From Microbacterium sp. oral taxon 186 str. F0373 (GTDB lineage: Bacteria; Actinomycetota; Actinomycetes; Actinomycetales; Microbacteriaceae): DNA of 64,000 nucleotides. Numbering within the stretch: position 1 is the first letter of the stretch; the number at the start of each line of letters is the position of its first letter. The position numbers and the translations under genes are program-made. Below, piece by piece: positions 9,522 through 28,379 of this stretch. Location of the stretch: positions 1,452,023-1,516,022 of the forward strand of contig NZ_KE150457.1 of NCBI RefSeq assembly GCF_000411455.1, in the 5' to 3' direction. The notes under the pieces were generated by a model. It had not been told where the DNA came from, did no database searches, and saw only the letters and a list, made by a program, of their open reading frames with translations.

Positions 9522-9823
9522 GACTCAATTCTGCCCTCGACCTCCGACATCAGAGCGGTATAAGGCCTGGTCAACGGCGCATTGTGGACAACCCTCGGAT
9601 GCCTCTGTGTGGGGAGGAATCGGCGCAAGAGTAAGGGCCGGTCGGAGAGGCTTCCGACCGGCCCTTGTCCCTTGCACCAAGAGTGTCCTGCAATCACATG
9701 CCGGTAACTGCCACAGCAAAACAACTACCGTGCGAGCACTCTATAACGGCCAGATAACGGCCACAAGGGGTTTCCGTTACCTTTTCGTGACTTCATACGA
9801 AAGTCGAAAGGTGGCAGCGCCGG
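9522..9823. other. Intergenic stretch with structured leader
   Basis: No credible gene. The stretch holds a perfect 14-bp hairpin, the short motifs TTGCACC and GAGTGTCCTGC, and a doubled ATAACGGCCA motif. It then becomes AT-richer up to the inverted end of the element at 9824. Confidence 0.6.
9633..9763 (-). promoter_or_regulatory. Putative structured 5' leader, copy 1
   Basis: Read on the minus strand, the segment starts at two exact copies of TGGCCGTTAT set 11 bases apart (9754-9763 and 9743-9752), runs about 50 bases to GCAGGACACTC (9681-9691), then GGTGCAA (9672-9678), and ends in a hairpin with 14 paired bases (9633-9646 with 9653-9666, loop GAGGCT). The DUF222/HNH start codon is 112 bases further on. 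The same order of parts occurs at 28174-28308 upstream of pgi. It could be an attenuator, riboswitch or small RNA; function is unknown. Confidence 0.45.
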
Positions 9824-9888
9824 TGTCCGATGACAGTGATTCTGTGTCTGTGCTATTGATCTTGTGGCGATGACGTTGATCACGTCGT
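9824..9888 (+). repeat. Left inverted end of the element
   Basis: Starts TGTCC and then has three units of 20 bases (9829-9848, 9849-9868, 9869-9888), each with a (G/T)TGAT core in the same place. The period is exactly 20. Such tandem sites are where transposases of large or multi-subunit elements bind. Confidence 0.6.
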
Positions 9889-10504
9889 CTGCGCCATTTA
9901 GCTTTCCCGGACTACGCGCACTCGGAGCGTTGCCTGTCCGGTGCGCTCTGGAAGAGGGGCGTCGGACTCGCGACCGGGGAACTGCAACTGGCCGCAACGC
10001 TCATCCGGCGCTGGGCGATCGACGAGCTCACGGGCGCGCGGATTGAAGACCGCATGTCTGCCATCGGTGTCGAGGCGCTCGACGTGAGTTCCGTCCTCCT
10101 CATCGCCTACCCCGAGGCCGTCCGTTTGGCCACCGTGCTCACCGACCCTTCATTCGCGAGCTACCTGCTCAGTCCGCGATTCAGTCTCGCCGAGCAGGTC
10201 TGGGCACAGGAAGCCGAAGGCATCACGATCATGAGTGGCTCCACGAACACCCGCCTCGGAGAGCATCGTCGCCCGGGGGAAGGCGGCCGTCGAAACCGCA
10301 TTTGGCATGCGCCAGAGTGCCCACAACAAACGCCCCGCCGCGCTCGAGAAGGCGCTCATCGCCGCTTCGCAACGACACCGCACCTGCCTGCTGCGCCACC
10401 TCAGCACCGTACGGATCCAGATCCTGCCGTACCAGCCCGGACTTGCCGTTCCGCGAAGTCGCCTACTGAATGGGCAACCACCTCCGGACCTCACCGTCTT
10501 CTAG
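9880..10504 (+). pseudogene. Decayed reading frame inside the element, possibly TniQ-like
   Basis: From 9880 to about 10233 one frame reads coherently (CLSGALWKRGVGLATGELQL ... ALDVSSVLLIAYPEAVRLAT). From about 10235 to 10504 the next frame is coherent (GKAAVETAFGMRQSAHNKRP ... STVRIQILPYQPGLAVPRSR). The first half has no start codon just after the left end, and the two halves are out of frame by one. The helix-rich middle with the phrase AYPEAVRLATVL recalls the C-terminal part of actinobacterial TniQ transposition proteins, but this is a weak resemblance made by eye. It could instead be two unrelated fragments. Confidence 0.3.
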
Positions 10505-10677
10505 CGATTTCGGATTCTGGGGTGATGGCATCCGGCCGCACATGGTTGCGACTCACAGTCGATCAACGCCAAGTCGACCGCCCTGCGAGCATCGATCCGG
10601 GGCCGAGGCCCGTCCTGACCTCGGGAGCGTATGGATTTGCTGTTGATTCTCGCTGGTGACCTTGCCAGAGTGCGGCT
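10505..10677. other. Spacer inside the element
   Basis: No gene, operator or strong hairpin was found between the decayed frame and the membrane protein gene. Confidence 0.5.
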
Positions 10678-11256
10678 ATGAGGCATCGTCGTTGGGGCGC
10701 AATCGCCGTGATCGTCGGTGGCGCCCTCGAGGTACTCCGAGTCGTTCTCACCCAGCTCGTGTTTCCGTCGGTCGCCGCACCGCGGGTCACGGCAGCAGTG
10801 GTCGCTCTCGCTCCGACACTTCTCATCGCAGTTGGGCTTCTCGCAGTCGGGCTGTCGTACCGCGCGCGCGGGCGTCTCGCCTTCCTGATCGCGGCGATCT
10901 CCGGCTTGCTCCTTGTGGCAGTGAACGCTGCTCAGATACTTCTCGCCTCTCCTTTGGGGCCAGCGCCCTCCCAACTTGCGATCGCAATCCATGGCGCGTC
11001 GACCGCTGCGGCAGCGGTGATGCTCCTGTCAGATCGATCCGTGCTTACCCCTGATCGGTGGTCGTTGACCCTTCCCGCTGGGTGCATGCTCCTTGTCGTC
11101 CTCGGCATGTCCCTCATGCCCTGGACCGCACTTGCAGTCCTTCCTGCGGTGGGCTACATCTCCGGCGGATATCTCGTTCTCCGTACGACCCGGGAACTAT
11201 CAACGTCGCGACGCGCGGGGTTCGCTGAAGCCCCCAGTTCCCGAGACGGTGTCTAG
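10678..11256 (+). CDS. Hypothetical integral membrane protein (element passenger)
   Basis: A 192-residue protein with about five to six hydrophobic segments: roughly residues 8-30, 38-60, 68-92, 100-118, 130-150 and 150-170. The charged tail (TTRELSTSRRAG) lies in the cytoplasm by the positive-inside rule. No motif identifies a family. The gene lies between the inverted ends of the 1.6-kb element. Its GC and codon choice are slightly lower and less biased than the neighbours, which fits acquired DNA. Start ATG at 10678; no strong ribosome-binding site is visible. Confidence 0.55.
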   Translation: MRHRRWGAIAVIVGGALEVLRVVLTQLVFPSVAAPRVTAAVVALAPTLLIAVGLLAVGLSYRARGRLAFLIAAISGLLLVAVNAAQILLASPLGPAPSQLAIAIHGASTAAAAVMLLSDRSVLTPDRWSLTLPAGCMLLVVLGMSLMPWTALAVLPAVGYISGGYLVLRTTRELSTSRRAGFAEAPSSRDGV

Positions 11257-11514
11257 GCTCGCCAAACCAAGAAATGGCCCACGCCGAGGTTCGTATTGCC
11301 GTATCGACAGATCACAGATTCAAAGGCACGGGCGCCCCCAACTCGTGGATCTCGGCTCGGAGAGGCCCGGCGAAGTCCGGCAGGTCTCCGACACAGAATC
11401 AATGGCACAGACGACAACATCACTGTCATCGGACAGCAGCGCCCGCCGCGGCGCACGGCGACGGCGAAGCCCTGCGCGAGGGGGTCGCGAAGCGCCGCGA
11501 TGGGACACTGAGCC
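11257..11514. other. Right end of element and flank
   Basis: Contains the right inverted end (to 11435) and the GCAGCGCCCG flank. The remaining 70 bases up to the next gene are open in several frames but match nothing recognisable; they may be the downstream part of a host sequence split by the insertion. Confidence 0.4.
11391..11435 (-). repeat. Right inverted end of the element
   Basis: On the minus strand it begins with the same 17 bases as the left end, followed by TGTGCCATTGATTCTGTGTC as second unit (period 21). Compared with the left end, about 36 of 45 positions agree with one single-base gap. Confidence 0.6.
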
Positions 11515-11826
11515 ATGCCCGTCCGCCCCGACATCGTCTGCATCTGCGGCTCCTCGCGCTTCGTCGCCGAAATGCGCGACGCGAACCGTGACCTCGCCCT
11601 CCAGGGCGTCATCGTCCTCGCCCCCGGCGAGATGGAGGGCGCCGTCAGCGCAGAGCAGAAGGCCGTCCTCGATGCGCTCCACCGGCACAAGATCGATCTC
11701 GCCGACCGTGTGCTCGTCGTCAATCCCGGCGGCTACATCGGTGCATCGACGGCGGCGGAGATCGCCTACGCGCGGGCAGCAGGCACGCCGGTCTCCTTCA
11801 CCGACCCGCCGGACCTCTCCCGCTGA
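11515..11826 (+). CDS. Nucleoside 2-deoxyribosyltransferase-like protein
   Basis: A 103-residue protein with the compact Rossmann-like fold of the nucleoside 2-deoxyribosyltransferase/DUF4406 group. Visible family marks are ICGSSRF in the first loop, the segment ALDALHRHKIDLADRVLVVN where the conserved acidic residue sits before VVN, and GGYIGASTAAEIAYARAAGTPV, which forms the nucleotide pocket. Many short relatives, often in phages, have no measured activity, so the substrate is unknown. The gene begins 80 bases after the presumed insertion site of the 1.6-kb element. It is probably intact because the start gives the usual N terminus. Confidence 0.75.
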   Translation: MPVRPDIVCICGSSRFVAEMRDANRDLALQGVIVLAPGEMEGAVSAEQKAVLDALHRHKIDLADRVLVVNPGGYIGASTAAEIAYARAAGTPVSFTDPPDLSR

Positions 11827-11908
11827 GGTCGCCGGTCGCCGAACCCATCCGATCTCCGGCCCGTGCCGAACAACACAGGTACCCCGACCCCGGCGGCAGG
11901 AGATCATC

Positions 11909-13486
11909 GTGACCACGCACACCGGACGGCGCGCGTCGCTCGCCCTCGCCGCGCTCGCGGGTGTCGTCAGCGGGGCGGTGTTCCTCGGTGTCGCCGAGGT
12001 GCTGGCGCTGCTCGTCGCGCGCAGCGCCAGCCCGATCCTGGCGGTCGGCGGCTTCGTGATCGACATCGTTCCCCAGCCCTTCAAGGAGTTCGCGATTGCG
12101 ACGTTCGGGGCGAACGACAAGATCGCCCTCCTCGCGGGGCTCGGTCTCGCCGTCGTCATCGCCTCGGCGATCGGCGGAGTACTCGAATACCTGCGCAGTC
12201 CCCTCGGCGTGGTGGTCGTCGCGATCGCCGGCCTGTTGTCCACCGCGGCCGTCGTCTCGCGCACCGGGGTCACGCCCCTGTCGTTCGTTCCTCCTGTGAT
12301 CGGCGCGGTCGCGGCATCCGTCGTCCTGGTCCTGCTCGGTCGCCGCCTGCGGCGCTGGCGGCGACCCGTGCCCGCCCCCGACGCGATCGACGCCGCCCCG
12401 GACGACGCACAGGCCCTCGGCCGGCGCGGCTTCTTCCGCCTCGCAGGCGTTGCGGGAATCTCCGCGGTGATCGTCGGTGTCACGGCCCGCGTCGTGACGG
12501 CAGCGACCTCATCGGTCGACGCGATCCGCGATGCGCTGAAGCTGCCCGCGCCTCGTCGAACGCTGACGGTGCCCGCCGGCGCCGAGCTCGACGTTCCCGG
12601 TCTCTCGCCGCTGTTCACGCCGAACGCCGACTTCTACCGCGTCGACACGGCGCTCACCGTGCCGGCCATCGACCCGTCGACCTGGCGTCTCGTCGTCGAC
12701 GGCATGGTCGAGCGCCGCGTCGAGTTGAGCTTCGACGATCTGGTCGGCATGGGCCTGGACGAGTACGGCATCACCCTGACCTGCGTCTCGAACGAGGTCG
12801 GCGGCGGACTGGTCGGAAACGCGCGCTGGCTCGGCGTGCCGGTCCGCGACATCCTGCGAATGGCAGGACCGCACGCCGGTGCCGACATGGTGCTCTCCCG
12901 CAGCATCGACGGCTACACCGCGAGCACGCCGCTGTCGGCACTCACCGATGACGGGCTCGACGCGATCTTGGCGGTCGCGATGAACGGTGAGCCGCTGCCG
13001 GCCGAGCACGGCTTCCCGGTGCGGATGATCGTCCCCGGGCTCTACGGATACGTCTCGGCGACGAAGTGGCTCACCGAGCTGAAGGTGACGACGTTCGCGG
13101 CCGACGAGGCGTACTGGACGCCGCGGGGATACAGTGCCGAGGCGCCCATCAAGCTCTCCTCGCGTGTCGACGTGCCCAAGGTCGGCAGTCCCGTCGCCCC
13201 GGGGCGGGTCCCCGTCGCGGGCATGGCATGGGCGCAGCCGACCGGGGTCGCCCGCGTCGAGGTGAACATCGACGACACCGGCTGGATCCCGGCAACCATT
13301 TCCACGCCGGTGAACGACGAGAGCTGGGTGCAGTGGATGTACGAATGGGATGCCGCGCCCGGCACCCACTACATCGCGGTACGCGCCTGGAACAAGAACG
13401 GCCAGCTGCAGGAGCAACAGCGCGCCCCCGTCGCCCCGAACGGGTCGACGGGGTGGCACCGGGTTCTCGTCACCGTGTCGTCGTGA
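11909..13486 (+). CDS. Membrane-anchored molybdopterin oxidoreductase, sulfite oxidase fold
   Basis: A 525-residue protein. About four membrane helices occupy residues 10-155, then a twin-arginine-like motif RRGFFRLAG (R172-R173) leads into a further hydrophobic segment, and residues about 225-525 form the outward-facing catalytic part. That part has the oxidoreductase molybdopterin-binding domain with C292 in TLTCVSNEVGG, the expected Mo-binding cysteine, followed by the Mo-co dimerisation-like immunoglobulin domain (VEVNIDDTGW). The family resembles sulfite oxidase/YedY; the natural substrate is unknown. GTG at 11909 is chosen because AGGAG (11898-11902) sits 6 bases before it. No partner cytochrome gene is adjacent. 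Confidence 0.87.
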   Translation: MTTHTGRRASLALAALAGVVSGAVFLGVAEVLALLVARSASPILAVGGFVIDIVPQPFKEFAIATFGANDKIALLAGLGLAVVIASAIGGVLEYLRSPLGVVVVAIAGLLSTAAVVSRTGVTPLSFVPPVIGAVAASVVLVLLGRRLRRWRRPVPAPDAIDAAPDDAQALGRRGFFRLAGVAGISAVIVGVTARVVTAATSSVDAIRDALKLPAPRRTLTVPAGAELDVPGLSPLFTPNADFYRVDTALTVPAIDPSTWRLVVDGMVERRVELSFDDLVGMGLDEYGITLTCVSNEVGGGLVGNARWLGVPVRDILRMAGPHAGADMVLSRSIDGYTASTPLSALTDDGLDAILAVAMNGEPLPAEHGFPVRMIVPGLYGYVSATKWLTELKVTTFAADEAYWTPRGYSAEAPIKLSSRVDVPKVGSPVAPGRVPVAGMAWAQPTGVARVEVNIDDTGWIPATISTPVNDESWVQWMYEWDAAPGTHYIAVRAWNKNGQLQEQQRAPVAPNGSTGWHRVLVTVSS

Positions 13487-13530
13487 GCGCTCGTCCGCCG
13501 CGACGGAGCCCCACGCGTGAGAATGTCGGC

Positions 13531-13893
13531 ATGACACCTCGTTGGACCCCGCTCGCGATCACCTACCTCGTGCTGGCGATCGCCGGACTGGTCGGCACGT
13601 TCGCCCTCAACGTGTGGTCGGTCGTGCTCATGCGCAACTACCTGCTCGACCTCGTGCAGTCGGGCCCCGCCGTCGGATCGATCGGGGTCGACATCATGGT
13701 CGCCGCGATCGCCGGCAGCATCCTGATCATCGTCGAGGGACGACGGCTGGGGATGCGTCGTCCCTGGTTGTATGTGGTCGTATCGCTGGTGACCGCGTTC
13801 GCGGTCGTCTTCCCGCTGTTCCTGGCGATGCGTGAGCGGGCGTTGGCGGTGCGCCGGATGCCGCCGACCGCTGGCGCCGCGGCCTCGACCTGA
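13531..13893 (+). CDS. DUF2834 membrane protein
   Basis: A 120-residue protein with three hydrophobic helices (about residues 8-30, 55-72 and 80-105). The strings IVEGRRLGMRRPWLYVV and FPLFLAMRER are typical of DUF2834, a family of small membrane proteins of unknown role. It starts 45 bases after the oxidoreductase on the same strand and may be cotranscribed. Confidence 0.8.
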   Translation: MTPRWTPLAITYLVLAIAGLVGTFALNVWSVVLMRNYLLDLVQSGPAVGSIGVDIMVAAIAGSILIIVEGRRLGMRRPWLYVVVSLVTAFAVVFPLFLAMRERALAVRRMPPTAGAAAST

Positions 13894-13908
13894 GGCGGCG
13901 GGGAGGGC

Positions 13909-14196
13909 TCAGGCGGTCGCGGAGGGTGCCTCATCCGCCCGTGCGGCCCCGCGCTCACGCGCGATCGAGCGAGCGAGCACCTGGCCGCCGTTGGTCAGCA
14001 GCGCGCGGCGCCACGGGAGGGTGCCCTCGATCTCGATCTGGATCGAGATGGACAGCACCGTCCGGATGATGACGATGAGTCCGAGGACCACCGCGTCTTC
14101 GATCGAAGGCTTCGAGGTGATCGTGCGGATGAGGTCGGCGGACACGAGCACCTCGAGCCCGAGCAGGATCGCGGCGCCGAGCGTGTTGCGCAGCAC
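13909..14196 (-). CDS. DUF1622 family membrane protein, apparently N-terminally short
   Basis: The 95 residues contain the central and C-terminal DUF1622 pattern: GAAILLGLEVLVSADLIRTI, then VLGLIVIIRTVLSISIQIEIEG. Full-length members begin with a further membrane helix and a RAYRRLR-like linker. Here the upstream frame gives only AYLV before running into the terminator of the neighbouring CsbD gene, so the first helix appears to be missing. GTG at 14194-14196 is the only reasonable start. Either a truncated gene or a shortened member of the family. Confidence 0.6.
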   Translation of the reverse strand: MLRNTLGAAILLGLEVLVSADLIRTITSKPSIEDAVVLGLIVIIRTVLSISIQIEIEGTLPWRRALLTNGGQVLARSIARERGAARADEAPSATA

Positions 14197-14241
14197 GAGG
14201 TAGGCGTCGCGGCGCGGTGAGCAGACGCCGTCCGCGCACAG

Positions 14242-14277
14242 CCGACGCCCCCGCTCGCCGAGGAGCGGGGGCGTCGG
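14242..14277 (-). terminator. Strong hairpin after csbD-like gene
   Basis: Fifteen bases (14242-14256) pair perfectly with 14263-14277 around a six-base loop. It starts just beyond the stop of the CsbD-like gene on the minus strand and separates it from the DUF1622 gene. Confidence 0.75.
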
Positions 14278-14285
14278 TCGGGGGC

Positions 14286-14456
14286 TTACTTGAACGCGTC
14301 CTTGACGTCTTCGCCGGCCTTCTTCACGCGGGCCTTGGCCTGGTCGGCCTCGCCCTCCGCTTCGAGCTTCTCGTTGTGCGTCACCTTGCCGACGCCCTCC
14401 TTGACCTTGCCGCCGATGTCTTCGGCTGCGTTCTTGATCTTGTCGTCGAGACCCAT
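14286..14456 (-). CDS. CsbD family stress protein, 56 aa
   Basis: A very small, charged protein: MGLDDKIKNAAEDIGGKVKE at the start, then a lysine/glutamate-rich helix and the end VKKAGEDVKDAFK. This is the CsbD-like pattern (general stress response, probably helical and partly disordered; exact role unknown). ATG at 14454-14456 is preceded on the minus strand by AGGGAAG at suitable distance. It has its own strong terminator, so it is likely expressed as a single-gene unit. Confidence 0.88.
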   Translation of the reverse strand: MGLDDKIKNAAEDIGGKVKEGVGKVTHNEKLEAEGEADQAKARVKKAGEDVKDAFK

Positions 14457-14543
14457 GGTGTCTTCCCTTCTGCGAACTCCTGTCTCGACGCTACGAAGTC
14501 GGCACGCCTGAGGGCAGTGGGTTGACGGGGCGCGGTCTCCGTA

Positions 14544-15188
14544 CTAGGCGCGTGCGGCGTGCGCCCGCGGGGTGCGAGCCGCGGGAGGGCGGAGCATGCC
14601 GACGGGGCGGGCGCCGGGGATGCCGCCGATCGCGCGGACCTCTTCGAAACCCAGGCGTCGATACAGGCGTCGATTCACTGGTGTCGAGGATTCGAGGTAG
14701 GCGCTCTGGCGCATCACGTCGAGGGCCTCGAGCTGAGCGGAAAGAAGGCGGCCCCCGACACCCTTGCCGCGTGCGCGGGCGCTGACTCCCACCTCCGCGA
14801 GATACCAGTGCGGCGAGCGCGGCCGTTCGCGCTCCAGGCGGGAGAACAGCGCCAGGGCGCTGGGGATGCCGCGCCACCCCAGAGCGCGGGTGAAGTGCGG
14901 CGCGTGCCGGGCCAGTCGACGGAGCGCGCCGCGTCGGGCCTCGGGGCCCTCCCACGCCGCGACACCCAGGATCGACCCTTCGTCATCTCGGGCGAGGTCG
15001 ACCGTGCCGGTCGCGAAGGCTCCCGCGGCGAGGATTCCGTGGAAGAGGTGCGCCAGCCGCGTGCGACGCCGGCCGGTGGTCGGCATGATGGCGGCGAAGA
15101 CGGGATCTGCTTCGAAGGCTTCGGCGAGCACGTCGGCGGCGGCCGGGAGGTCGCCGCGACGAGCGGGGGTGATGGTGATCTCCGACAT
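14544..15188 (-). CDS. GNAT family N-acetyltransferase
   Basis: A 214-residue single-domain acetyltransferase. The acetyl-CoA binding loop is visible as VSARARGKGVGGRLL (the Q/RxxGxG/A motif), preceded by the strand WYLAEVGV and followed by YLESSTPVNRRLYRRLGFEE, the classic motif B. Substrate unknown. It is divergent from a TetR regulator with a shared promoter region, a common regulator/target arrangement, so it is the likely target of that regulator. Confidence 0.88.
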   Translation of the reverse strand: MSEITITPARRGDLPAAADVLAEAFEADPVFAAIMPTTGRRRTRLAHLFHGILAAGAFATGTVDLARDDEGSILGVAAWEGPEARRGALRRLARHAPHFTRALGWRGIPSALALFSRLERERPRSPHWYLAEVGVSARARGKGVGGRLLSAQLEALDVMRQSAYLESSTPVNRRLYRRLGFEEVRAIGGIPGARPVGMLRPPAARTPRAHAARA

Positions 15189-15260
15189 GTCTCCTCCAAA
15201 TGGTCCAAGTGGATAAGATGAGTATGAGCGATGCGCTTGGTGTCGAACCTGGAGGATGCT
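15189..15260. promoter_or_regulatory. Divergent promoter region, GNAT / TetR
   Basis: Holds TAAGAT (15211-15216 region) as a possible -10 for the TetR gene and CTCCTCC, the antisense of the GNAT ribosome-binding site, next to 15189. No perfect palindrome suitable for a TetR operator is evident. Confidence 0.35.
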
Positions 15261-15887
15261 GTGAATGATGTGTCGTCGCCTCGTGCGTATCTCGGCATCG
15301 ACGACCGGCGTCGCCAGCTGCTCGACGCAGCCTGGGAGGTGATGCGTGACGGCGGCGCGGCGACGTTGTCGTTGCGCACGGTGGCGCAACGGGCAGGGGT
15401 GGCCCATCGCGTCGTCACGTACGCGTTCGGGACGAAGAGCGCGCTGGTGGCCGCCCTGCTCGAGCGCGAGTCCGCGCGTGCGGTCGAAGCTGCCTGGGCC
15501 GTGCCACTGGCGGAGGAGAGCCGCGAGCGCGCCGTGGCGCGGGCACTTCGCGCTTACCTCGACGATGTGCGGGCCGATCCCCGTCGCCATGAGAGTCTTG
15601 CGGAACTGACGGCGCTGGCCAGATCCGCTGGCGAGCCGGCGGATGCTGCGGAGATCGAGAGTGCTGCAGCGCTCAGCGAGATCGATGCCCGCCTGCGCGC
15701 GTGGGAGTCTGCCCGGGGCGTCCACTCCCTCGCACCGCGGGAGGTCGTGGCCGGGGCGATTCTCGCGGCGGCGGGCGGGCTGGCGCAGTGGTGGCTCGCG
15801 ACGCGCGACGATACCCGCGCCGATGCGATCATCGATCTGCTCGCTCGCGGCTTTACCGATCCGGATGCCGCGGCATCCGGATCCTGA
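15261..15887 (+). CDS. TetR family transcriptional regulator
   Basis: A 208-residue repressor with the TetR helix-turn-helix at about residues 18-62 (LDAAWEVMRDGGAATLSLRT ... VAHRVVTYAFGTKSALVAAL) and a poorly conserved ligand-binding C-terminal domain. GTG at 15261 is preferred because GGAGGA (15251-15256) lies 4 bases upstream; an ATG at 15231 in the same frame is the alternative. The likely role is control of the divergent acetyltransferase gene. Its stop is followed within 7 bases by the convergent COG0523-like gene. Confidence 0.85.
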   Translation: MNDVSSPRAYLGIDDRRRQLLDAAWEVMRDGGAATLSLRTVAQRAGVAHRVVTYAFGTKSALVAALLERESARAVEAAWAVPLAEESRERAVARALRAYLDDVRADPRRHESLAELTALARSAGEPADAAEIESAAALSEIDARLRAWESARGVHSLAPREVVAGAILAAAGGLAQWWLATRDDTRADAIIDLLARGFTDPDAAASGS

Positions 15888-15893
15888 TCCCGA

Positions 15894-16925: not shown

Positions 16926-16944
16926 AACGGGCCTGCTTTCACAT

Positions 16945-16973
16945 TTGACGAAGGGACGTCCTCACTCTAGCTT
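16945..16973 (+). promoter_or_regulatory. Possible promoter of the L36 gene
   Basis: TTGACG at 16945-16950 and TAGCTT at 16968-16973 are 17 bases apart. The Zur-like box starts 5 bases downstream, a position where a bound repressor would block initiation. Confidence 0.45.
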
Positions 16974-16977
16974 CTTA

Positions 16978-16994: not shown

Positions 16995-17006
16995 CAAGGA
17001 GATCTC

Positions 17007-21091: not shown

Positions 21092-21096
21092 CCGCG

Positions 21097-21182
21097 GCGT
21101 TTCGACTCGCTGTTCTCGCTCAACGACCGGGGGAGGCCTCCCCCGGTCGTTGAGCGAGGCGCGCAGCGACGAGTCGAAACGC
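21097..21182. repeat. Nested palindrome / terminator between convergent genes
   Basis: A perfect 40-base palindrome (21117-21156) is enclosed by a second inverted pair of 13 bases (21097-21109 with 21170-21182). It sits between the convergent PTS and coaBC genes and would act as a terminator for both. Its wording (CGTTTCGACTCG, CGCTCAACGACCGG) looks like a dispersed intergenic repeat. Confidence 0.75.
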
Positions 21183-21196
21183 GGTGACCCCCGCCG

Positions 21197-22402
21197 TCAG
21201 CGGGTCGCGGCGACCGCGTCCCAGATGGCGTCGGCGACGACGCGCTTGGAGCCCGCGGCATCCGCGACCACCGAGCCCGCGGCATCCAGCAGGAGCACGC
21301 GGTTCTCGGTCGTCTCGAAGCCGTGGTCCCAGTCGACGCGGTTGACCGCGAGCAGGTCAACGCCCTTGCGCTCCCGCTTGCGGCGCCCGCGCCCCAGCAG
21401 CTCGGTGTCGTCCGCCGCCGTCTCGGCCGCGAACCCGATGACGGTCTGGCCCGGCCGCCGCGCCGCCACCATGCCCGCCAGGATGTCGGGGTTCGGCACG
21501 AGATCCAGCCGCGGCACGCCGTCCTCCTTGCGCAGCTTTTCGTGCGAGACCTCCGCGACGCGGAAGTCCGCGACCGCGGCGACCATCGCGACGACGTCGG
21601 CGGTGGCCGCGGCATCCGTCATCGCCGCCTGCAGCTCAGCGGCCGTCCTCACGTGGACGACGGCGATGCGCGAGTGGCGGGATGCCGCATCCAACACGCC
21701 CTCGTCCACGTGTGCCGCCACGAGCACGACCTCGGCGCCCCGATCGGCGGCGGCCAGGGCGAGCTGGGCCCCCTGCCGGCCGCTGGAGCGGTTGCCGAGG
21801 AACCTGACGGGATCGATCGGCTCGCGCGTGCCGCCGGTCGACACGGCGATGCGCAGCCCCGCGAGATCCGCCGGACGCGCGGCGGCGACGGCCAGCGCCG
21901 CCGCGACGATCTCCTCGGGCTCCACCATGCGCCCCGGCCCGCTGTCGCCGCCGGTGAGCGGACCGTCGGCCGGTCCCACCACGTGCACGCCGCGGGCGCG
22001 GAGGGTGGCGATGTTGGCCTGCGTGGCCGCATGCTCCCACATGGCGGTGTGCATCGCGGGGGCCACGACCACCGGAGCGGTGGTGGCGAGCAGGGTGACG
22101 CCGAGCAGTTCGTCCGCGATCCCCGCGGCCATCTTGGCGAGCGTGTTCGCGGTCGCCGGGGCGATGACGACGAGGTCCGCGGAGGTGCCCAGGGTCACGT
22201 GGCGCACGCGTGAGACGTCGTCGTGCACGCTCGTCGTGACAGGATTCCTGCTGACGGCCTCCCACGTGGTCGTCCCGACGAAGCGCAGCGAGTCCTCCGT
22301 GGGAACAACGTGCACCTCGTGTCCGTTGGTCACCAGGGCGCGCACGAGGTGCACCGTCTTGTACGCGGCGATGCCGCCCGTCACGCCCACGACAACGAAC
22401 AT
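21197..22402 (-). CDS. coaBC: Phosphopantothenoylcysteine decarboxylase/synthetase
   Basis: Bifunctional coenzyme A enzyme: the C-terminal CoaB domain joins 4'-phosphopantothenate to cysteine and the N-terminal flavin-dependent CoaC domain decarboxylates the product. The 401-residue chain shows GVTGGIAAYKTVHLVRAL, the flavin-site H in SVHDDVSRVRHVTLG, ATANTLAKMAAGIADEL, the decarboxylase APAMHTAMW, and in CoaB STGGTREPIDPVRFLGNRSS and AAVADFRV with a KLRKE motif (usually KIKK). Full length and all domain marks are present. It converges on the PTS gene. Confidence 0.95.
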   Translation of the reverse strand: MFVVVGVTGGIAAYKTVHLVRALVTNGHEVHVVPTEDSLRFVGTTTWEAVSRNPVTTSVHDDVSRVRHVTLGTSADLVVIAPATANTLAKMAAGIADELLGVTLLATTAPVVVAPAMHTAMWEHAATQANIATLRARGVHVVGPADGPLTGGDSGPGRMVEPEEIVAAALAVAAARPADLAGLRIAVSTGGTREPIDPVRFLGNRSSGRQGAQLALAAADRGAEVVLVAAHVDEGVLDAASRHSRIAVVHVRTAAELQAAMTDAAATADVVAMVAAVADFRVAEVSHEKLRKEDGVPRLDLVPNPDILAGMVAARRPGQTVIGFAAETAADDTELLGRGRRKRERKGVDLLAVNRVDWDHGFETTENRVLLLDAAGSVVADAAGSKRVVADAIWDAVAATR

Positions 22403-22465
22403 GGTCCGATCCTCCCACGCCCGCCGGCGCGGGCACGAGGAACGGACGGAGAGGTCACGAGCACC

Positions 22466-23188
22466 GTGTGTACCGTCATCGTCCACGTCCCGCACGACGA
22501 CGGCGCGCCCGTACGGTTGCTCGCCGTCCGTGACGAGGATCCGCAGCGCACCTGGGATCCGCTCGGCGCGTGGTGGCCCGAGCTTCCGGGGGTGAAGGGT
22601 GTGCGCGACCGTCGTGCCGGTGGCGCGTGGTTGGCGGTGGATGCCGAGGCCGGCCGCGTCGCGGTGATCCTCAACCGCGCCGACGTGCTGGTCGCCGACC
22701 CGACTGGGCAGGCGGAGCCGCCGGTCTCCCGCGGCCGGATCGTCCTCGACGCCGTCGCCGGCCGCACCCCGGACAGTCCACCGCATGCGCAGGGGTTCAA
22801 CCTCGTCGAAGCGACGGCAGCCGGCGCCCGTGTCACCATGTGGGACGGCGGCGCCCTGCGGCGCGTGGACCTGACTCCGGGCATCCACATGATCGCGCAC
22901 GACGACGTCGACGACGAGGCGACGGCACGCATCGCGGCGTGGCGGGATGCCTTCACCGCCCCGGATTCCGCCCACGCACGGTGGTGGGAGCCCTGGCTCG
23001 ACACCCTCGAGCGCACGAGCGCGGTGGGCTCCACCGACGACCGGGCGATCGTCCGCGACAACCGACCCTTCGGCTACCCGACCCTGTCGCTGCTGGTGTG
23101 CGCCGTCTCACTGGGACCCGACGGCGTCGAGGCGCGGTACGCCGAGTTCGACGAGCCGGGACGCTGGAACCGCCCGCACCTGCACTGA
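22466..23188 (+). CDS. NRDE/TANGO2 family protein
   Basis: A 240-residue protein of the Ntn-hydrolase-like NRDE family. GTG at 22466 gives the family N terminus M-C-T-V-I-V, in which the cysteine becomes residue 1 after methionine removal, as expected for an Ntn nucleophile. The name-giving NRDE motif is changed to VRDE here (LLAVRDEDPQRTWDP). GGAWLAVD and a late GYPTLSLLVCAV strand agree with the family. Function is unclear; eukaryotic TANGO2 is linked to heme and lipid handling. It is divergent from coaBC with 63 bases between starts. Confidence 0.8.
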   Translation: MCTVIVHVPHDDGAPVRLLAVRDEDPQRTWDPLGAWWPELPGVKGVRDRRAGGAWLAVDAEAGRVAVILNRADVLVADPTGQAEPPVSRGRIVLDAVAGRTPDSPPHAQGFNLVEATAAGARVTMWDGGALRRVDLTPGIHMIAHDDVDDEATARIAAWRDAFTAPDSAHARWWEPWLDTLERTSAVGSTDDRAIVRDNRPFGYPTLSLLVCAVSLGPDGVEARYAEFDEPGRWNRPHLH

Positions 23189-23454
23189 CCACAGCCGCCC
23201 GGATGCGGGTTTCGCGAGCGCCTTCGTGCTCGCTTCGAATCCCCGTGGCGACACCAACCCACCCGCGAACGTGATGGTACCGCCACGCCACGGCGCCGAG
23301 CTGTGGATGGCGCGCCCGCGAGGCGTTCTGCTGACCCCTGGGTCTCGCGGAGGCCGCCTCCGCGTCCGACAGCGAGAAACCACAGCCACCACGAGAAACC
23401 ATGTGGTGGGGTGTTTCTCGCGTCGGAACTGGTTTCTCGTCGATGTGACGGCGG
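23189..23454. other. Intergenic stretch with clustered GAGAAAC boxes
   Basis: No gene was found. Two CGAGAAACC boxes and two reversed GTTTCTCG boxes are clustered in the last 80 bases, together with a CCACCAC/GTGGTGG pair. Confidence 0.55.
23373..23439. repeat. Four-box inverted array of GAGAAAC
   Basis: CGAGAAACC occurs at 23373-23381 and 23392-23400, and its reverse complement at 23413-23420 (8 bases) and 23431-23439 (9 bases). Inner and outer pairs are each symmetric around about 23406. CCACCAC before the second box pairs with GTGGTGG after it. Could be an operator cluster or a complex terminator for the two genes converging here. Confidence 0.6.
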
Positions 23455-23817
23455 TCAGGCGGCGTCGATGTGTGCTCGCAGCTGCGACGCCGAGGAGGTG
23501 GGGCCGCCGACCTGCACGAACCCGTCGCCTCGCCGCAGGAGCAGCATCGGGTAGCTGTGGGTGCCGGCCTCGGCGAGTTCGTCCTGCTCGCGACGGGCGA
23601 GCTCCGCGACCTGCGGGTCTGACAGGTGCGCGACGACGTCCTGGGCGTCGAGTCCGTGGGCGACGGCGATATCCGCGTAGGTGCTGACCTCGGAGAGGCT
23701 CTTGCCGTCGCGGTAGAAAGCGGCCTGCATGGCTGCTGCCAACTCGAGGTCACGGCCGGGACCGGCGACGGCCCGGAGCGCCGCGAGGCCGCGAGCGGCC
23801 GCGTCGGAGTCCATCAC
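23455..23817 (-). CDS. DsbA-family protein, C-terminal half only
   Basis: The 120 residues match the helical insert and last thioredoxin strands of DsbA/FrnE-like proteins: MDSDAAARGLAALRAVAGPG, then AAFYRDGKSLSEVSTYADIA and SYPMLLLRRGDGFVQVGGP with the cis-proline loop SYP. The N-terminal thioredoxin strand with the redox CxxC is absent, and only 100 bases separate it from the next gene, so the missing part is not nearby. It is probably a truncated remnant, although a translated fragment is possible. Confidence 0.6.
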   Translation of the reverse strand: MMDSDAAARGLAALRAVAGPGRDLELAAAMQAAFYRDGKSLSEVSTYADIAVAHGLDAQDVVAHLSDPQVAELARREQDELAEAGTHSYPMLLLRRGDGFVQVGGPTSSASQLRAHIDAA

Positions 23818-23917
23818 GAGGCTTCCCTCCCGCCGGTGTGCGCGGTGTGCTCGCGTATCCGATGGTGCTTTTCCTGCGTCCGCGCCTGGAGGCGAGCTAT
23901 CGTCGCGCTCTCACCCG

Positions 23918-24529
23918 TCAGGCGTCCGTGATCTGAGTCCGCTCCGGGCGCCGACGCAGCAGCAGGATGCCGTCCTCGAGCGTTGCCGGTCGGCCATCGG
24001 GGTCCGTCACCTCGCGGCGGCGCGTCTCGACGAGCACGTGCTCCCACGCGTCGGGGTCGAGCGCGAGCAGGCGCAGCTCCTCCTCGGGCGGCAGAAGCCG
24101 GGGCGTGTGACCGTCGCCGTGGCCGGTGGACCAGGGCGGCGCGGCGGCGTGGGAGACGACGAGAAGGTGGCCGCCGCCCGCAACGCGATCGGCTGCCGCG
24201 CGCAGGAGCGGGATCCGCGGGAAGTCCTCGTCCCACGAGTGGAGGAAGCTGGCACTGACGAGGTCGAACGTCCCGGGCGGGGCAGCGTCGGCACCGCTGC
24301 CGACGACGAACGAGAGTCGGTCGCTCAGGCCCCGCTCGGCGGCTACCGCCCTGGCGCGCCGGATCGCGGTCGGGGAGAGGTCCACCGCGGTCACACGCCA
24401 TCCGCGCTCCGCGAGCCACACGGCATCCGCTCCCTCGCCGCAGCCGATCTCGAGGGCGGTGCCCGCCTCGAGATCGGCGGTGACGTCGGCCACGGCCGCG
24501 TTGACCCGTCCGGACCAGACGCTGTCGCG
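23918..24529 (-). CDS. SAM-dependent methyltransferase, C-terminal half of a split fusion
   Basis: A class I methyltransferase domain: LEIGCGEGADAVWLAERGW (SAM-binding motif I), AVDLSPTAI (acidic residue of motif II) and TFDLVSASFLHSW. It lies in the same frame as the upstream oxidoreductase, and the sequence RDSVWSGRVNAAV that links them in fused relatives is present directly after an in-frame TAG (24530-24532). If translated alone, the first start is GTG at 24491-24493, which would omit the linker. Substrate unknown. Confidence 0.8.
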   Translation of the reverse strand, partial: RDSVWSGRVNAAVADVTADLEAGTALEIGCGEGADAVWLAERGWRVTAVDLSPTAIRRARAVAAERGLSDRLSFVVGSGADAAPPGTFDLVSASFLHSWDEDFPRIPLLRAAADRVAGGGHLLVVSHAAAPPWSTGHGDGHTPRLLPPEEELRLLALDPDAWEHVLVETRRREVTDPDGRPATLEDGILLLRRRPERTQITDA

Positions 24530-25498
24530 CTACGCGTAGCGCTGCTCCCACTCGACGGCGCGCCGCCGGGCGCTCGCGGCGACGGTGAACTCGGTGTCCT
24601 CATCGACGAGCGCGGCGTTGACGGCTGCCCCGGCCATCGAGCCGGTCGCCATCGCCACGGGCACGTTCCCGTGCGGGGCTGCGACGTTGCCGGCGGCCCA
24701 CACGCGCGGATGAGACGTCGCACCCCGCCCGTCGACCGCGAGGGGTGAGCCGGGCTCGTCATGGCGCGCGAGACCGAGACCGTCGGCGAACGCGATGTCG
24801 ACGACCACGCTCGGCGCGACGAAGAGCGCATCGACCTCGTGTGCGACGCCCGCGGCATCCTGCACGGCGCGCAGCGCTCCGTCGTGGGCGCGGACGGCGG
24901 TGACGGGCGTGTCGACGATGTGGATGCCGCGTGAGCGCAGCCGCGTGCGGACGGTCTCGTCGAGCGGCTCGATCGCGGCGGTGAACGCGGTGACCTCGGC
25001 GCTCCACTGGCGCACGAGCTCGATCTGATGGATGCTCAGCGCCGACGTTGCGAGCACGCCCAGCCGAGCGCCGGCGACCTCGAAGCCGTGGCAGTACGGG
25101 CAGTGCAGCACGCTGTGGCCCCACAGCTCGTCGAGCCCCGCGACAGAGGGGAGCTCGTCCCGCACTCCGGTCGCGATGATGACCGCACGAGCGGTGTCGA
25201 CGGTGCCATCGACGCGCGTCAGCCGCAGCACGGCACCCTCATCACGGATGTCGGCGACAGCGCCCTTCTCGACGTGCACACCGTAGCGGTCAAGCTCGTC
25301 ACGTCCGCGTGCGAGCAGCGCCTGCGGATCGATCCCGTCGTGCCCCAGCACGGCGTGCACGTGCGCGGCGAAGCGATTGCGCGGGCTGCCCTCGTCGATC
25401 GCCAGCGTCCGTCGGCGTGCACGCCCCAGCATTTGCGCGGCGCTCAGACCGGCCGCGCCGCCGCCGATGACGACGGCATCCCACTCTCTGTTCTGCAT
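24530..25498 (-). CDS. Thioredoxin reductase-like FAD oxidoreductase, N-terminal half of a split fusion
   Basis: A 322-residue FAD/NAD(P)-dependent enzyme: VVIGGGAAGLSAAQML binds FAD, the CPYC redox pair lies at HCPYCHGFEV, and VWAAGNVAAPHGNV is the second FAD motif. It ends EWEQRYA followed by TAG. In related actinobacteria one polypeptide continues after EWEQRYA into ERD-VWSG and a methyltransferase; here TAG takes the place expected for the glutamate codon GAG, a one-base change. The divergent neighbour is an XRE-cupin regulator that is probably its controller. Confidence 0.87.
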   Translation of the reverse strand: MQNREWDAVVIGGGAAGLSAAQMLGRARRRTLAIDEGSPRNRFAAHVHAVLGHDGIDPQALLARGRDELDRYGVHVEKGAVADIRDEGAVLRLTRVDGTVDTARAVIIATGVRDELPSVAGLDELWGHSVLHCPYCHGFEVAGARLGVLATSALSIHQIELVRQWSAEVTAFTAAIEPLDETVRTRLRSRGIHIVDTPVTAVRAHDGALRAVQDAAGVAHEVDALFVAPSVVVDIAFADGLGLARHDEPGSPLAVDGRGATSHPRVWAAGNVAAPHGNVPVAMATGSMAGAAVNAALVDEDTEFTVAASARRRAVEWEQRYA

Positions 25499-25528
25499 GC
25501 CTCCACTGTGGAAGGCGGCGACGCCTAT

Positions 25529-25544
25529 TGCAATCTGAATTGCA
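25529..25544. promoter_or_regulatory. Inverted repeat, likely operator of the XRE-cupin regulator
   Basis: TGCAAT, four bases, ATTGCA: a perfect palindrome in the 65-base gap between the divergent oxidoreductase and regulator genes. A partial third box (ATTGGCA, 25547-25553) follows. Confidence 0.55.
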
Positions 25545-25563
25545 CAATTGGCAAACTAGAGGC

Positions 25564-26115
25564 GTGCCCTACACGCTGGATCAGGTCGGCGCTCGTCTTC
25601 GCGCGGCGCGTCAGGCGCGCGGCTGGACGTTGGAGGAGCTGGCCAGACCCGCTGGCGTCTCGGTGAGCACGCTGTCACGGCTCGAGTCGGGCAAGCGGCA
25701 GGCCTCCCTCGAGCTGCTGCTTCCGTTGACGCGTCGACTCGGCATCCGCATCGACGACCTGCTTCCCACCGAAACGCCGGACCCGCGTGTGCACCGCGCC
25801 GTGGAGCGCCGCGACGGCATGGTCATCGCGCCCCTGACGCTCGAGCAGTCCCCGGTGCAGGCGCTGAAGATCGTCTATCCGCCGATGGATGCCGCGCCCG
25901 CCGCGCGCATCCACGAGGGCTACGAGTGGCTCTACGTGCTGAGCGGACGGGTGCGGTTGGCCCTCGACGGCAGCGAGCACGTGCTCACCCCAGGGGAGGC
26001 CGCCGAGTTCGACACCCGTCTGCCGCACTCGATCAGTGCCACCGCCGAGGGCCCCGCCGAGGTGTTGAGCATCTTCAGCGCCGCCGGCGAGCGCTTCCAC
26101 ACGCGCCTGCCCTGA
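25564..26115 (+). CDS. XRE family regulator with cupin domain
   Basis: A 183-residue protein: an XRE helix-turn-helix at about residues 6-60 (VGARLRAARQARGWTLEELA ... VSTLSRLESGKRQASLELL) and a cupin sensor domain at about 100-180 (HEGYEWLYVLSGRVRLALDG, then LTPGEAAEFDTRLPH). Such regulators usually control the adjacent metabolic gene and sense a small ligand. GTG at 25564 is preferred; it would leave a very short or absent leader. It is divergent from the oxidoreductase/methyltransferase genes with an inverted repeat between. Confidence 0.88.
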   Translation: MPYTLDQVGARLRAARQARGWTLEELARPAGVSVSTLSRLESGKRQASLELLLPLTRRLGIRIDDLLPTETPDPRVHRAVERRDGMVIAPLTLEQSPVQALKIVYPPMDAAPAARIHEGYEWLYVLSGRVRLALDGSEHVLTPGEAAEFDTRLPHSISATAEGPAEVLSIFSAAGERFHTRLP

Positions 26116-26144
26116 CCGGCCGCAGGCACACCCCGCGGGAATGC

Positions 26145-26363
26145 GTGTCGCGATCGGTTGTGCGAGGCGGCGGGATGCCGCGGGTTGCGCCCCCGATTTG
26201 CGGGTGCCGCGGGACTGGCGGGAGTTGGTGTCGCGATCGGTTGTGTGAGCCGGTGGGATGCCGCGGATAGGGACCCCGATTTGCGGGTGCCGCGGGACTC
26301 GTGGGAATCGGTGTCGCGATCGGTTGTGTGAGGCGGCGGGATGCCGCGGGTCACGCCCCCGAT
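26145..26363. repeat. 83-bp tandem repeat, 2.6 copies
   Basis: Units start at 26145, 26228 and 26311, each with GTGTCGCGATCGGTTGTG, then a GGGATGCCGCGG segment and CCCCCGATTTGCGGGTGCCG. The first two are 83 bases long and nearly identical; the third merges after CCCCCGAT into the pgi terminator. The array lies between the convergent XRE-cupin gene and pgi. Confidence 0.85.
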
Positions 26364-26385
26364 CCGGGACTCCGGATCGGGGGCG
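26354..26385 (-). terminator. Terminator of pgi
   Basis: Fourteen bases at 26354-26367 pair perfectly with 26372-26385 around GACT. It lies 10 bases beyond the pgi stop on the minus strand, and its left arm is shared with the last tandem repeat unit. Confidence 0.8.
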
Positions 26386-26394
26386 CGGGCCGCG

Positions 26395-28074
26395 TCAGCC
26401 GCGGTGCGTGCGGTAGTACGACAGGAGCGCCTGGGTCGAGGCATCCTGCGCAGCCGTCGCGGCCTCGTCCCCCTCGATCGCCGGGGCGATCTGCAGGGCG
26501 AGCTGCTTGCCGAGCTCGACGCCCCACTGGTCGAAGGAGTTGATGCCCCAGACCACACCCTGCGTGAAGGTGATGTGCTCGTACAGAGCGACCAGCTCGC
26601 CGAGCACGCGCGGGGTCAGCGCCGGCGCGAAGATCGACGTCGTCGGGCGGTTGCCGGGGAACGTGCGTGCCGCCACGAGCGCGCCGGTGGTGCCCTCGGC
26701 TTCGACCTCCTCCGCCGTCTTGCCGAAGGCGAGAGCCTTGGTCTGCGCGAGGAAGTTCGCCAGGAACAGGCCGTGCACGTCGCGGCCGCCGTCGTTCAGG
26801 TCGTACGCGGGGTTCACGAAGGCGATGAAGTCCGCCGGGATCAGGCGGGTGCCCTGATGGATCAGCTGGTAGAAGGCGTGCTGACCGTTGGTGCCCGGCT
26901 CGCCCCAGAAGATCTCGCCCGTGTCGCTCGTGACCGGCGAGCCGTCCCAGCGCACGCGCTTGCCGTTGGACTCCATGGTCAGCTGCTGCAGGTACGCGGC
27001 GAAGCGGCTGAGCTGCTGGGCGTAGGGGAGCACGGCGTGCGACTGCGCGCCGAGGAAATTCGTGTACCAGACGTTGAGCAGGCCCATGAGGACCGGCACG
27101 TTGCGCGCGAACGGGGTCGTGCGCACGTGCTCGTCGATCGCGTGGAAGCCCGCGAGAAGCTCGCGGAACGCGTCCGGTCCGAGCTCGACCATCAGCGACA
27201 GGCCGATGGCGGAGTCGACCGAGTAGCGGCCGCCCACCCAGTCCCAGAATCCGAAGGCGTTGGCCGGGTCGATGCCGAAGTCGGCCACCTTGTCGAGGGC
27301 GGTCGAGACCGCGACGAAGTGGTGCGCGACGGCATCCTGCTTCTGCGCGTCGGAGCCGTCGATCGCCCCGGCGGCGGCCAGGCCCGTCCACAGCCAGTCG
27401 CGCGCGAGACGCGCGTTGGTGAGCGTCTCCAGCGTCGTGAACGTCTTCGAGGCGACGATGAACAGCGTCGTCTCGGGGTCGAGGTCCTTCGTCTTGTGCG
27501 CCAGGTCGAACGGGTCGATGTTCGAGACGAAACGCGCGCTGATCCCCGCGGTCGCATACGGCTCCAGCGCGGTCGAGATCATCGCGGGACCGAGGTCGGA
27601 GCCGCCGATACCGATGTTGACGACGTGCGTGACCGTCTTGCCGGTGACACCCTTCCACGCGCCCGAGCGCACGCGATCGGCGAAAGCGCTCATCGCGTTC
27701 AGCACGGCCTGCACATCGGCATCCACGTGCTGGCCGTCCACGACGAGTTCGGGCGTCGCTCCGGCCGGGCGTCGCAGCGCCGTGTGCAGCACGGCGCGGT
27801 CTTCCGTCGTGTTGATGTGCTCGCCGCGGAACATGGCCGCGAGGCGATCGGCCAGGTGCACGTCGTCGGCGAGGGCCAGGAGCGAGGTCAGGATGCCGTC
27901 GTCCACGAGGTTCTTCGAGAGGTCCACGTGCAGGTCGGCGGCGTCGAAGGTCAGCCGCTCGACCCGCGTCGGGTCGTCGGCGAACCAGGCGCGGAGGTCG
28001 GGGGCGAAATCCGCGGCGCGTGCGGACAGATCGGCCCAGGCGGGAGTGCGGGTGGCGTCGATGGGAGTGCTCAC
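26395..28074 (-). CDS. pgi: Glucose-6-phosphate isomerase
   Basis: Interconverts glucose 6-phosphate and fructose 6-phosphate in glycolysis and gluconeogenesis (EC 5.3.1.9). The 559-residue chain shows [13 protein letters not shown], the phosphate-binding SKTFTTLET and the family signature [15 protein letters not shown]; a late lysine/glutamine-rich helix completes the active site. Start is GTG at 28072-28074. Upstream lies a structured leader similar to that of the DUF222/HNH gene, and a 14-bp hairpin follows. No other glycolytic gene is adjacent. Confidence 0.96.
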
Positions 28075-28379
28075 GCCTTTACGCTAGCGTCCGCGAGCCG
28101 GGTGTGCAGACGCGAGTCCTGTGAGAAAGGCATGGCCGGACGAGATCGATGCGCGAGCCCCGGAAACGACGGTGGGCCGGCCGTCCGAGAGGACGACCGG
28201 CCCTGCAATCCGTTGCACCGCATTCGCAGGGGGAGAGTCCTGCGTCGCCTCCTCCGGCTCATGGAGTCGGTGTCCGGATTCGGCGATGACTCACGTTATA
28301 ACGGCCAGGTCACGACCGGAGGCACGTCCGCCGAGTGCATATCGTTCGCATACCGTCCTGCCAGGAAACGGTCCCGTCC
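28075..28379. other. Intergenic stretch before pgi
   Basis: 305 bases without a gene; contains the putative leader at 28174-28308. The rest shows nothing recognisable. Confidence 0.6.
28174..28308 (-). promoter_or_regulatory. Putative structured 5' leader, copy 2
   Basis: On the minus strand: CTGGCCGTTATA (28297-28308; CGTTATAACG here is a palindrome), about 54 bases, GCAGGACTCTC (28233-28243), GGTGCAA (28213-28219), then a hairpin in which GGGCCGG (28174-28180) pairs with CCGGCCC (28197-28203) and GTCC/GGAC closes a GAGA loop. The pgi start is 100 bases further. Order and spacing match 9633-9763. CGCAGG/CCTGCG can form another hairpin in this copy. Confidence 0.45.

Follow-up and report, generated by a model that had tools for sequence, protein, structure and literature searches.

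A probable small regulatory RNA family of Microbacteriaceae with two covarying hairpins and an OmpR-family-like operator

A segment of about 100 nucleotides (element 1) within the 64,000-nucleotide stretch of Microbacterium DNA analyzed here (the window) looks like the gene of a stand-alone structured small RNA (sRNA), and sequence comparisons make it probable that this is an autonomous small regulatory RNA whose family is restricted to Microbacteriaceae, a large bacterial family known from soil, freshwater and plant-associated habitats. As summarized in Table 1, its layout runs from an operator and promoter region through a hairpin (H1) and a near-invariant linker to a terminator-like hairpin (H3) with a GCCUCU loop. 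Element 1 scored 137.3 bits with model R1 and 109.0 bits with model R2 in the window, and carries both the UUUGCUGUGG loop and the AUGUGAUUGCAGGACACUCUUGGUGCA linker that form the core of the R1/R2 family. The initial annotation had described two similar structured leaders, before the DUF222 gene and before pgi, and had suggested an attenuator, a riboswitch-like element or a small RNA family. The parts common to both segments read as it described them, and its distances of 51 and 54 bases between the TGGCCGTTAT box and GCAGGAC are correct by counting. Its suggestion of a small RNA family is supported: the promoter-like region is conserved, the hairpins covary, one hairpin resembles a terminator, and copies are found in front of different genes; the leader role it assigned was not supported, as described below.

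Table 1. Coordinates of the sRNA gene, its diverged relative and neighboring genes in the window
Feature	Position	Strand	Basis or remark
marR-type gene	5460..5894	-	tblastn; MarR-type NCBIfam models match below cut-offs
DUF222 gene, downstream of sRNA	8202..9521	-	PF02720, 85.1 bits
sRNA (element 1), ~100 nt	9629..9731	-	5' end inferred from -10, 3' end from hairpin
H3 terminator-like hairpin, GCCUCU in loop	9633..9666	-	12/13 pairs changed on both sides; 99.6% of cells paired
Linker AUGUGAUUGCAGGACACUCUUGGUGCAAGGG	9669..9699	-	conservation in alignment A3
H1 hairpin, loop UUUUGCUGUGG	9702..9730	-	8/10 pairs changed on both sides; 90.0% of cells paired
-10-like hexamer TAGAGT (TANNNT)	9738..9743	-	conserved position after GTTA
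Direct repeat GTTAT-N6-GTTAT, OmpR-family/MtrA-like operator	9743..9758	-	one-base overlap with -10
Second direct repeat GTCAC-N6-GTAAC	9775..9791	-	other orientation
pgi	26398..28074	-	PF00342, 657.2 bits; own -10-like hexamer close to start
Element 2, diverged sRNA relative	28172..28291	-	R2 15.3 bits, E 0.022 in window; ends inferred
Element 2 terminator-like hairpin	28174..28203	-	fold
Element 2 promoter region, GTGAC-N6-GTTAT plus hexamer TAACGT	28293..28313	-	layout as element 1
PhoB/MtrA-type DNA-binding domain gene	34969..35577	-	tblastn; PF00486 in L057 homologue

Conservation of element 1 was assessed in an alignment (A3) of 43 sequences from 31 genera, chosen from the best R1 scores. 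The first 27 bases of the linker were unbroken in all 43 sequences and the full 31 bases in 39 of them, while TTTGCTGTG of H1 was likewise present in 43/43. Covariation in relatives, which the initial annotation had named as the thing to look for, was found: in a two-hairpin structure read by hand from the family alignment, 20 of 23 pairs were changed on both sides, 95.5% of cells were paired compared to at most 47.1% when the structure was slid, and none of 500 shuffles was equally high on any of five measures. Control (b) of this test favors the hand structure because the structure was read from the family alignment. On this alignment evidence, the H1/H3 structure is supported by compensatory changes. 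These changes also bear on whether the segment is conserved as DNA, such as a protein-binding site or the end of a mobile element, instead of as RNA. Although the very high DNA-level identity and the occurrence of second copies at other places would fit such an element, the compensatory changes, a -10-like hexamer adjoining the operator, and the absence of matches among 50,697 phage records and 72,556 plasmid records and of exact core 18-mers in viral contigs make this reading highly improbable.

Folded alone, the window copy adopts a different minimum-energy structure, namely a long imperfect rod that pairs part of H1 with the linker in place of H1. Tested on a family alignment (A2) that had been fitted to the rod, the rod helix was compatible with 93.8% of cells, but it is unsupported because 0 of its 20 pairs were changed on both sides and 13 were invariant (28 distinct sequences). 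An RNAalifold structure of the genus alignment, which also paired part of H1 with the linker, had 0 of 36 pairs changed on both sides and was replaced by the hand structure. A linker hairpin, CUCUUG-GUG-CAAGGG, was not established, with 170 contiguous pairs compared to a shuffled mean of 159 and 109 of 2000 shuffles equally high, in a set of 39 distinct variants that included a few rows unlike sRNA copies. Pairing between the H1 loop and the linker was possible in 5/5 copies (-9.2 to -13.0 kcal/mol) and swapped partners paired equally well, in a sample (five copies with two loop and five linker variants) too small to judge.

The region upstream of element 1 has the form of a regulated promoter. 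Exact copies of TGGCCGTTAT lie at 9743-9752, 9754-9763 and 28298-28307, all on the minus strand; with one mismatch allowed it has 7 matches in the window, where 100 shuffles averaged 0.96. The box is one half of a GTTAY-N6-GTTAY direct repeat that runs into the TANNNT -10. At element 1 the box is doubled with an 11-bp period, a feature absent from the initial annotation. GTTAY-N6-GTTAY was present in 44/44 family and 29/29 genus loci, and in none of those sequences read backwards; the last base of the half site is often T. TANNNT immediately followed GTTA in 44/44 family loci and 28/29 genus loci. Further upstream, RTMAC-N6-RTMAC was found in 37/44 family and 27/29 genus loci, again with 0 when read backwards. 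A strict scan for sigma-70 promoters returned none at element 1 or element 2.

Similar direct repeats are bound by MtrA and by other OmpR-family proteins. The operator repeat of the sRNA has the form of MtrA-regulon sites, with GTnAC half sites and an 11-bp period. Published MtrA sites have the form GtnAcC-n5-GTnAcn (PMC13189361), a form similar to it (PMC5650626) and (A/G)TAACAATttn(A/G)TAACAAT (PMC3353115). The MtrA promoters described there, those of Streptomyces as well as those of Corynebacterium with the repeat on the opposite strand, resemble that of the sRNA in their GTnAC direct repeat and 11-bp period, but they belong to protein genes, whereas here the repeat precedes an sRNA and the half site is often GTTAT (PMC13189361, PMC5650626, PMC3353115). 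The sRNA operator has the shape of an OmpR-family (MtrA-like) site, with such a protein as the candidate regulator. Across the whole genome the operator pattern GTTAYNNNNNCGTTAY had 2 matches, compared to 1 in the reversed control; not being enriched in its own genome, it does not look like the mark of a large regulon.

The gene next to the sRNA varies by genome, being DUF222, pgi or, most often, marR. Of 120 distinct loci, 95 had a marR-type gene downstream in the same orientation, the median distance being 93 nt (97 loci), and a PhoB/MtrA-type gene was the upstream neighbor in 19 of 44 loci elsewhere; for the product of the window's PhoB/MtrA-type gene, response-regulator NCBIfam models match approximately residues 97-205, below cut-offs. 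The frequent marR neighbor, the weak U tail of H3 and the existence of H1 and the rod as alternative folds could together point to a 5' leader whose terminator is conditional (an attenuator or riboswitch), ancestral to marR and now before other genes too. However, a TANNNT hexamer stood near the marR start in 48 of 97 loci, compared to 6 in the control (the other 49 had none), and 5-16 nt before the pgi start in 27 of 30 relatives' loci, with 0 and 0 in shifted controls. Moreover, marR, the usual downstream neighbor across the family, is 3.7 kb from the sRNA in the window, and the two terminator arms change in concert beside a fixed linker, so that a conserved antiterminator using those arms would be unlikely. 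We consider a leader of marR improbable, and the changing next gene together with the hexamers close before pgi and marR starts likewise argues against the initial view of leaders belonging to DUF222 and pgi. A strict scan for U-tailed terminators found none at element 1 or element 2.

The two elements are probably related but not of equal standing: element 1 is a family member, whereas element 2 is recognized weakly by R2 and retains only GCAGGAC, CTC and GGTGCAA of the core. Aligned with each other, the elements scored 59 compared to 22.9 (sd 4.4) for dinucleotide shuffles, of which 0/500 were equally high. Without the terminator hairpin the score was 35 compared to 16.9 (sd 2.8), again with 0/500, and the best local alignment covered the promoter region only. 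That last result, the low R2 score, a middle portion that folds differently from that of element 1, and a pgi-upstream element of another genome (G080) that reached only z 3.4 without its terminator, with 5/500 shuffles equally high, would suit two unrelated elements that have in common an operator for one regulator and a common terminator sequence. In other Microbacterium, hairpins of the GGGCCGGTCGG type also precede pgi where there is no sRNA core (L159, L160, L176), so the GGGCCGGTCGG arm alone is weak evidence. Against an unrelated origin, element 2 aligned over its whole length (z 12.2) with the pgi-upstream element of G037, which keeps TTTGGTGCAACGGGA; that of G067 has CTCTGGTGCAAGGGA; and G047 has a full canonical sRNA copy upstream of pgi. 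Independent origin is thus a credible but unlikely account. Related elements lie before pgi in G080, G037 and G067, and the likeliest reading of element 2 is a paralogue in which the promoter, GGUGCAA and the terminator survived while most of the core was lost.

Conservation of element 1 extends far beyond the window, an aspect absent from the initial annotation. A DNA search matched it in 116 of 119 Microbacterium genomes, at least 28 of the 119 having second copies (places with E < 1e-10). The R1 covariance model matched 312 of 398 Microbacteriaceae genomes and 69 of 85 genera, counts that are soft in both directions because some weak family matches are not real and diverged homologues exist. 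Of the 16 genera that R1 left unmatched, three yielded diverged homologues accepted by reading (g13, L320; g25, L318; g47, L317). Rejected as family members were G165 (R1 E 0.006), which had no R2 match, and G407 (R1 E 0.005) and L319, which matched in the terminator only. Of the 33 genomes that matched in the order search, 5 lay outside the family, at up to 26.2 bits, as did 13 of the 29 that matched in the class search, at up to 36.1 bits, G598 being common to both. Loci were read in 14 of the 17 different genomes (G516, G537 and G794 were left out), and TGTGATTGC, GCAGGACACTC, CTTGGTGCAA and the operator repeat were absent from all 14; GTGATTGCAGGACA before an unrelated hairpin in L131 was taken for chance. 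Confinement to Microbacteriaceae forms part of the joint reading judged probable at the outset.

The family is new relative to Rfam 15, in keeping with the initial suggestion that it could be undescribed: at gathering scores no family matched in the window, and 20 family loci returned one tRNA only, in one relative. Relaxed thresholds gave sub-threshold matches, mostly on hairpins, the best at element 1 being PtaRNA1 (24.7 of 47 bits, terminator part). Among the papers listed from an open-licence PubMed Central library, titles and abstract starts contained no description of the RNA, and four sequence strings of the family had no match in the main texts of that library. The 6C RNA shares with element 1 a short length, an actinobacterial origin and a loop rich in C and U, but neither it nor other Rfam actinobacterial sRNAs reached the gathering score in the window or the 20 family loci. 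Ms1/6S RNA of Actinobacteria resembles element 1 as an actinobacterial stand-alone structured RNA recognized by conservation and neighbors. The Ms1 neighbors are HAD hydrolase and oxidoreductase genes (PMC9130861), compared to marR and the PhoB/MtrA-type gene here. Ms1/6S RNA is characterized by a long helix with a central bubble and by binding of RNA polymerase; for element 1, the window copy alone folds as a long imperfect rod, which lacks compensatory support, and covariation supports separate hairpins. The string 'Microbacteri' is absent from the main text of PMC9130861.

With regard to function, an OmpR-family response regulator may switch on or off transcription of element 1, itself predicted from sequence; candidates are MtrA and the PhoB/MtrA-type protein whose gene is a frequent neighbor. 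The sRNA would act in trans, its conserved unpaired segments (the H1 loop, the linker and the GCCUCU loop) base pairing with targets; the GCCUCU loop, being CU-rich, could mask an AGAGG Shine-Dalgarno sequence. Base-pairing riboregulation is the likeliest mode of action. Searches for a conserved long complementary site found none: the complement of a linker 17-mer matched with 0-1 mismatch in 41 of 46 rows, at least 25 rows being inside sRNA matches; a linker 18-mer gave 92 matches beyond 29 near-exact ones, compared to 80 in the reversed control; and marR start regions paired with the sRNA no better than background. This result, an unbroken invariant stretch longer than a pairing seed needs, and the rod available to the window copy would be compatible with an RNA that works like 6S/Ms1 or CsrB as a protein binder or decoy, with a family protein docking on its fixed loops and linker and no mRNA target at all. 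Since no Rfam family, 6S included, matched at threshold, the rod lacks compensatory support and known protein partners are none, we regard that mode as doubtful, if arguable, and retain base pairing as the preferred one. More speculatively, several fixed unpaired modules might work jointly in a family-wide master regulatory RNA, serving as a scaffold for protein binding or as a regulator of several targets, perhaps with a switch between the two-hairpin and rod forms, and linked to MtrA-type cell-envelope signaling.

The 27 unbroken fixed bases over 31 sampled genera in an RNA of about 100 nt point to strong, old selection. With its defined operator, this single small locus of a large bacterial family would make both regulator and targets directly testable, and the covariance model of the sRNA would allow its annotation in many genomes.

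The initial annotation had described two similar structured leaders before unrelated genes. On reading the sequence, the parts that it named were present in both segments, with positions and spacings as reported, and the alignment score of the two segments exceeded those of 500/500 dinucleotide shuffles. When the terminator hairpin was omitted, the best alignment of element 1 (the putative sRNA gene) with element 2 (its probable relative upstream of pgi) was the promoter region. Among 30 pgi loci and separately fetched stretches, related elements were present upstream of pgi in genomes G080, G037 and G067, that of G037 aligning to element 2 with a z of 12.2, and genome G047 carried a full canonical copy at this place (100.1 bits); most of the 30 pgi-upstream regions were without such an element. 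The simplest account is that element 2 is a diverged or decaying paralogue. Since GGGCCGGTCGG-type hairpins also occur upstream of pgi without the sRNA core (H1 loop and linker sequences) at loci L159, L160 and L176, this hairpin type is not specific to the sRNA.

Coordinates of features in the window and elsewhere in the same genome
Feature	Position	Strand	Remark
Element 1, putative sRNA gene	9731-9629	-	
Element 1 DNA query	9615-9790	-	
H1 loop able to pair with linker	9629-9740	-	
Element 2	~28313-28172	-	upstream of pgi
marR gene	5894-5469		
623-aa ORF	5939-7810	+	glycine/serine-rich tail at end
PhoB/MtrA-type DNA-binding-domain gene	34969-35577		25 kb from sRNA
L315, GTTAYNNNNNCGTTAY site	C2:299953-299968		just before ORF adjoining helicase-like gene

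The element 1 DNA query matched 116 of the 119 Microbacterium genomes at E ≤ 0.01, with identities at the best places mostly 80-97%, and found a second strong place in at least 28/119 (counted by hand). With element 2 as the query, this search matched 19/119 genomes, covering most of its length in its own genome and G080 and 22-54-base pieces in the other 17. Covariance model R1, built from 31 genus sequences, matched 312/398 genomes and 69/85 genera of the Microbacteriaceae. It matched twice in the genome of the window; within the window, the second match (34.0 bits) was the same hairpin on the opposite strand, and thus one full sRNA copy was counted. Model R2 was built from 43 sequences of 31 genera. 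Under stricter filters, with which weak matches were lost, it matched 33/347 genomes sampled from the order (28 within the family) and 29/345 from the class (16 within the family). The non-family matches scored at most 26.2 bits (5, order) and 36.1 bits (13, class), and neither core pieces nor operator were found in the 14 loci examined from them. A pattern scan of named genomes gave at least 119 stretches. The 80 matches listed came from Microbacterium, Cryobacterium, Agromyces, Curtobacterium, Leifsonia, Rathayibacter and Subtercola, all Microbacteriaceae by taxonomy, and from other genera, several rarer ones of which we take to be Microbacteriaceae, and unresolved actinobacterial bins. The sRNA was not found in viral contigs (exact 18-mer), phages or plasmids.

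In 43/43 family sequences, 27 unbroken linker bases were invariant (31 genera) and both GCCTC and the H1-loop sequence TTTGCTGTG were present; the whole 31-base linker string was in 39/43. These sequences were chosen among the best model scores, a choice that exaggerates conservation across the family as a whole. Invariance was broken in Microbacterium second copies, genus g50 and the genera of diverged homologues. Compensatory changes were found at 20 of the 23 pairs that make up the two hairpins, and pairing fell from 95.5% to at most 47.1% when one side was slid. H1 was the weaker hairpin (90.0% of cells paired; one position unpaired in up to 13/43 sequences). Taken alone, the window copy has as its lowest-energy fold a rod in which the H1 segment pairs with the linker. 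Since pairing between the H1 loop and the linker is possible, H1 and the long rod are alternative folds of one RNA, and both forms may exist because the rod is compatible with the family sequences, though without compensatory changes. We infer the start and end of the sRNA.

Nine second-copy loci in Microbacterium (L178, L179, L181, L182, L184, L186, L188, L189 and L193) possibly represent a second isoform; 8/9 carry CTCTGG, compared with CTCTTGG in element 1, and 0/9 keep the GCCTCT loop. Among 23 genomes with no or borderline matches, 14 gave some R2 match at E ≤ 1. By reading, we accepted L316, L317, L318 and L320 as diverged homologues, three of them from genera not counted earlier (L317, g47; L318, g25; L320, g13). 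All four keep the operator, the -10 and parts of UGUGAUUGC and CUCUUGGUG, 3/4 keep the GCCUC loop, and none keeps the H1 loop. In g50, the H1-loop sequence GCTGTGG and CTTGGTGCAAGGGA are retained by both L128 and L129, the linker middle by neither; L129 is without the operator repeat.

Upstream of the sRNA, GTTAY-N6-GTTAY was present in 44/44 family and 29/29 genus loci, followed by TANNNT (44/44 and 28/29), with RTMAC-N6-RTMAC farther upstream (37/44 and 27/29); these were top-scoring loci, and 29 of 30 genus loci were used, L026 being excluded because the copy found first sits at an edge. Neither repeat occurred in the same sequences read backwards. In form, the operator is in agreement with the MtrA sites described in PMC13189361, PMC5650626 and PMC3353115. 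Judged by sequence, MtrA may be the regulator of the sRNA operator. Other OmpR-family proteins bind similar repeats. A PhoB/MtrA-type DNA-binding-domain gene lies upstream of the sRNA in 19/44 family loci, in other genera. GTTAYNNNNNCGTTAY occurs twice in the window's genome (reversed control, once), at the sRNA operator and at L315, a site that may lie within a mobile element.

Of 124 loci (44 plus 80 from named genomes; 120 once those with identical sequence around the sRNA are merged), 97 (95/120 distinct) have a marR-type gene downstream in the same orientation as the sRNA, at a median distance of 93 nt, and five more have one upstream on the opposite strand. In the window, DUF222 and other ORFs lie between the two. 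TANNNT was found near the marR start codon in 48/97 loci versus 6/97 in a shifted control, and 5-16 nt before the pgi start in 27/30 relatives (0 in each of two controls). Judging from sequence, the sRNA would be transcribed separately from the marR and pgi genes.

No description of the sRNA was found among the titles and abstract openings listed by searches of an open-licence PubMed Central collection. Action by base pairing is preferred but, as complementarity searches gave no conserved complementary site, unproved; a protein-binding RNA, with which that result is consistent, is a serious rival. The conserved parts suggest that the sRNA is a trans-acting regulator.
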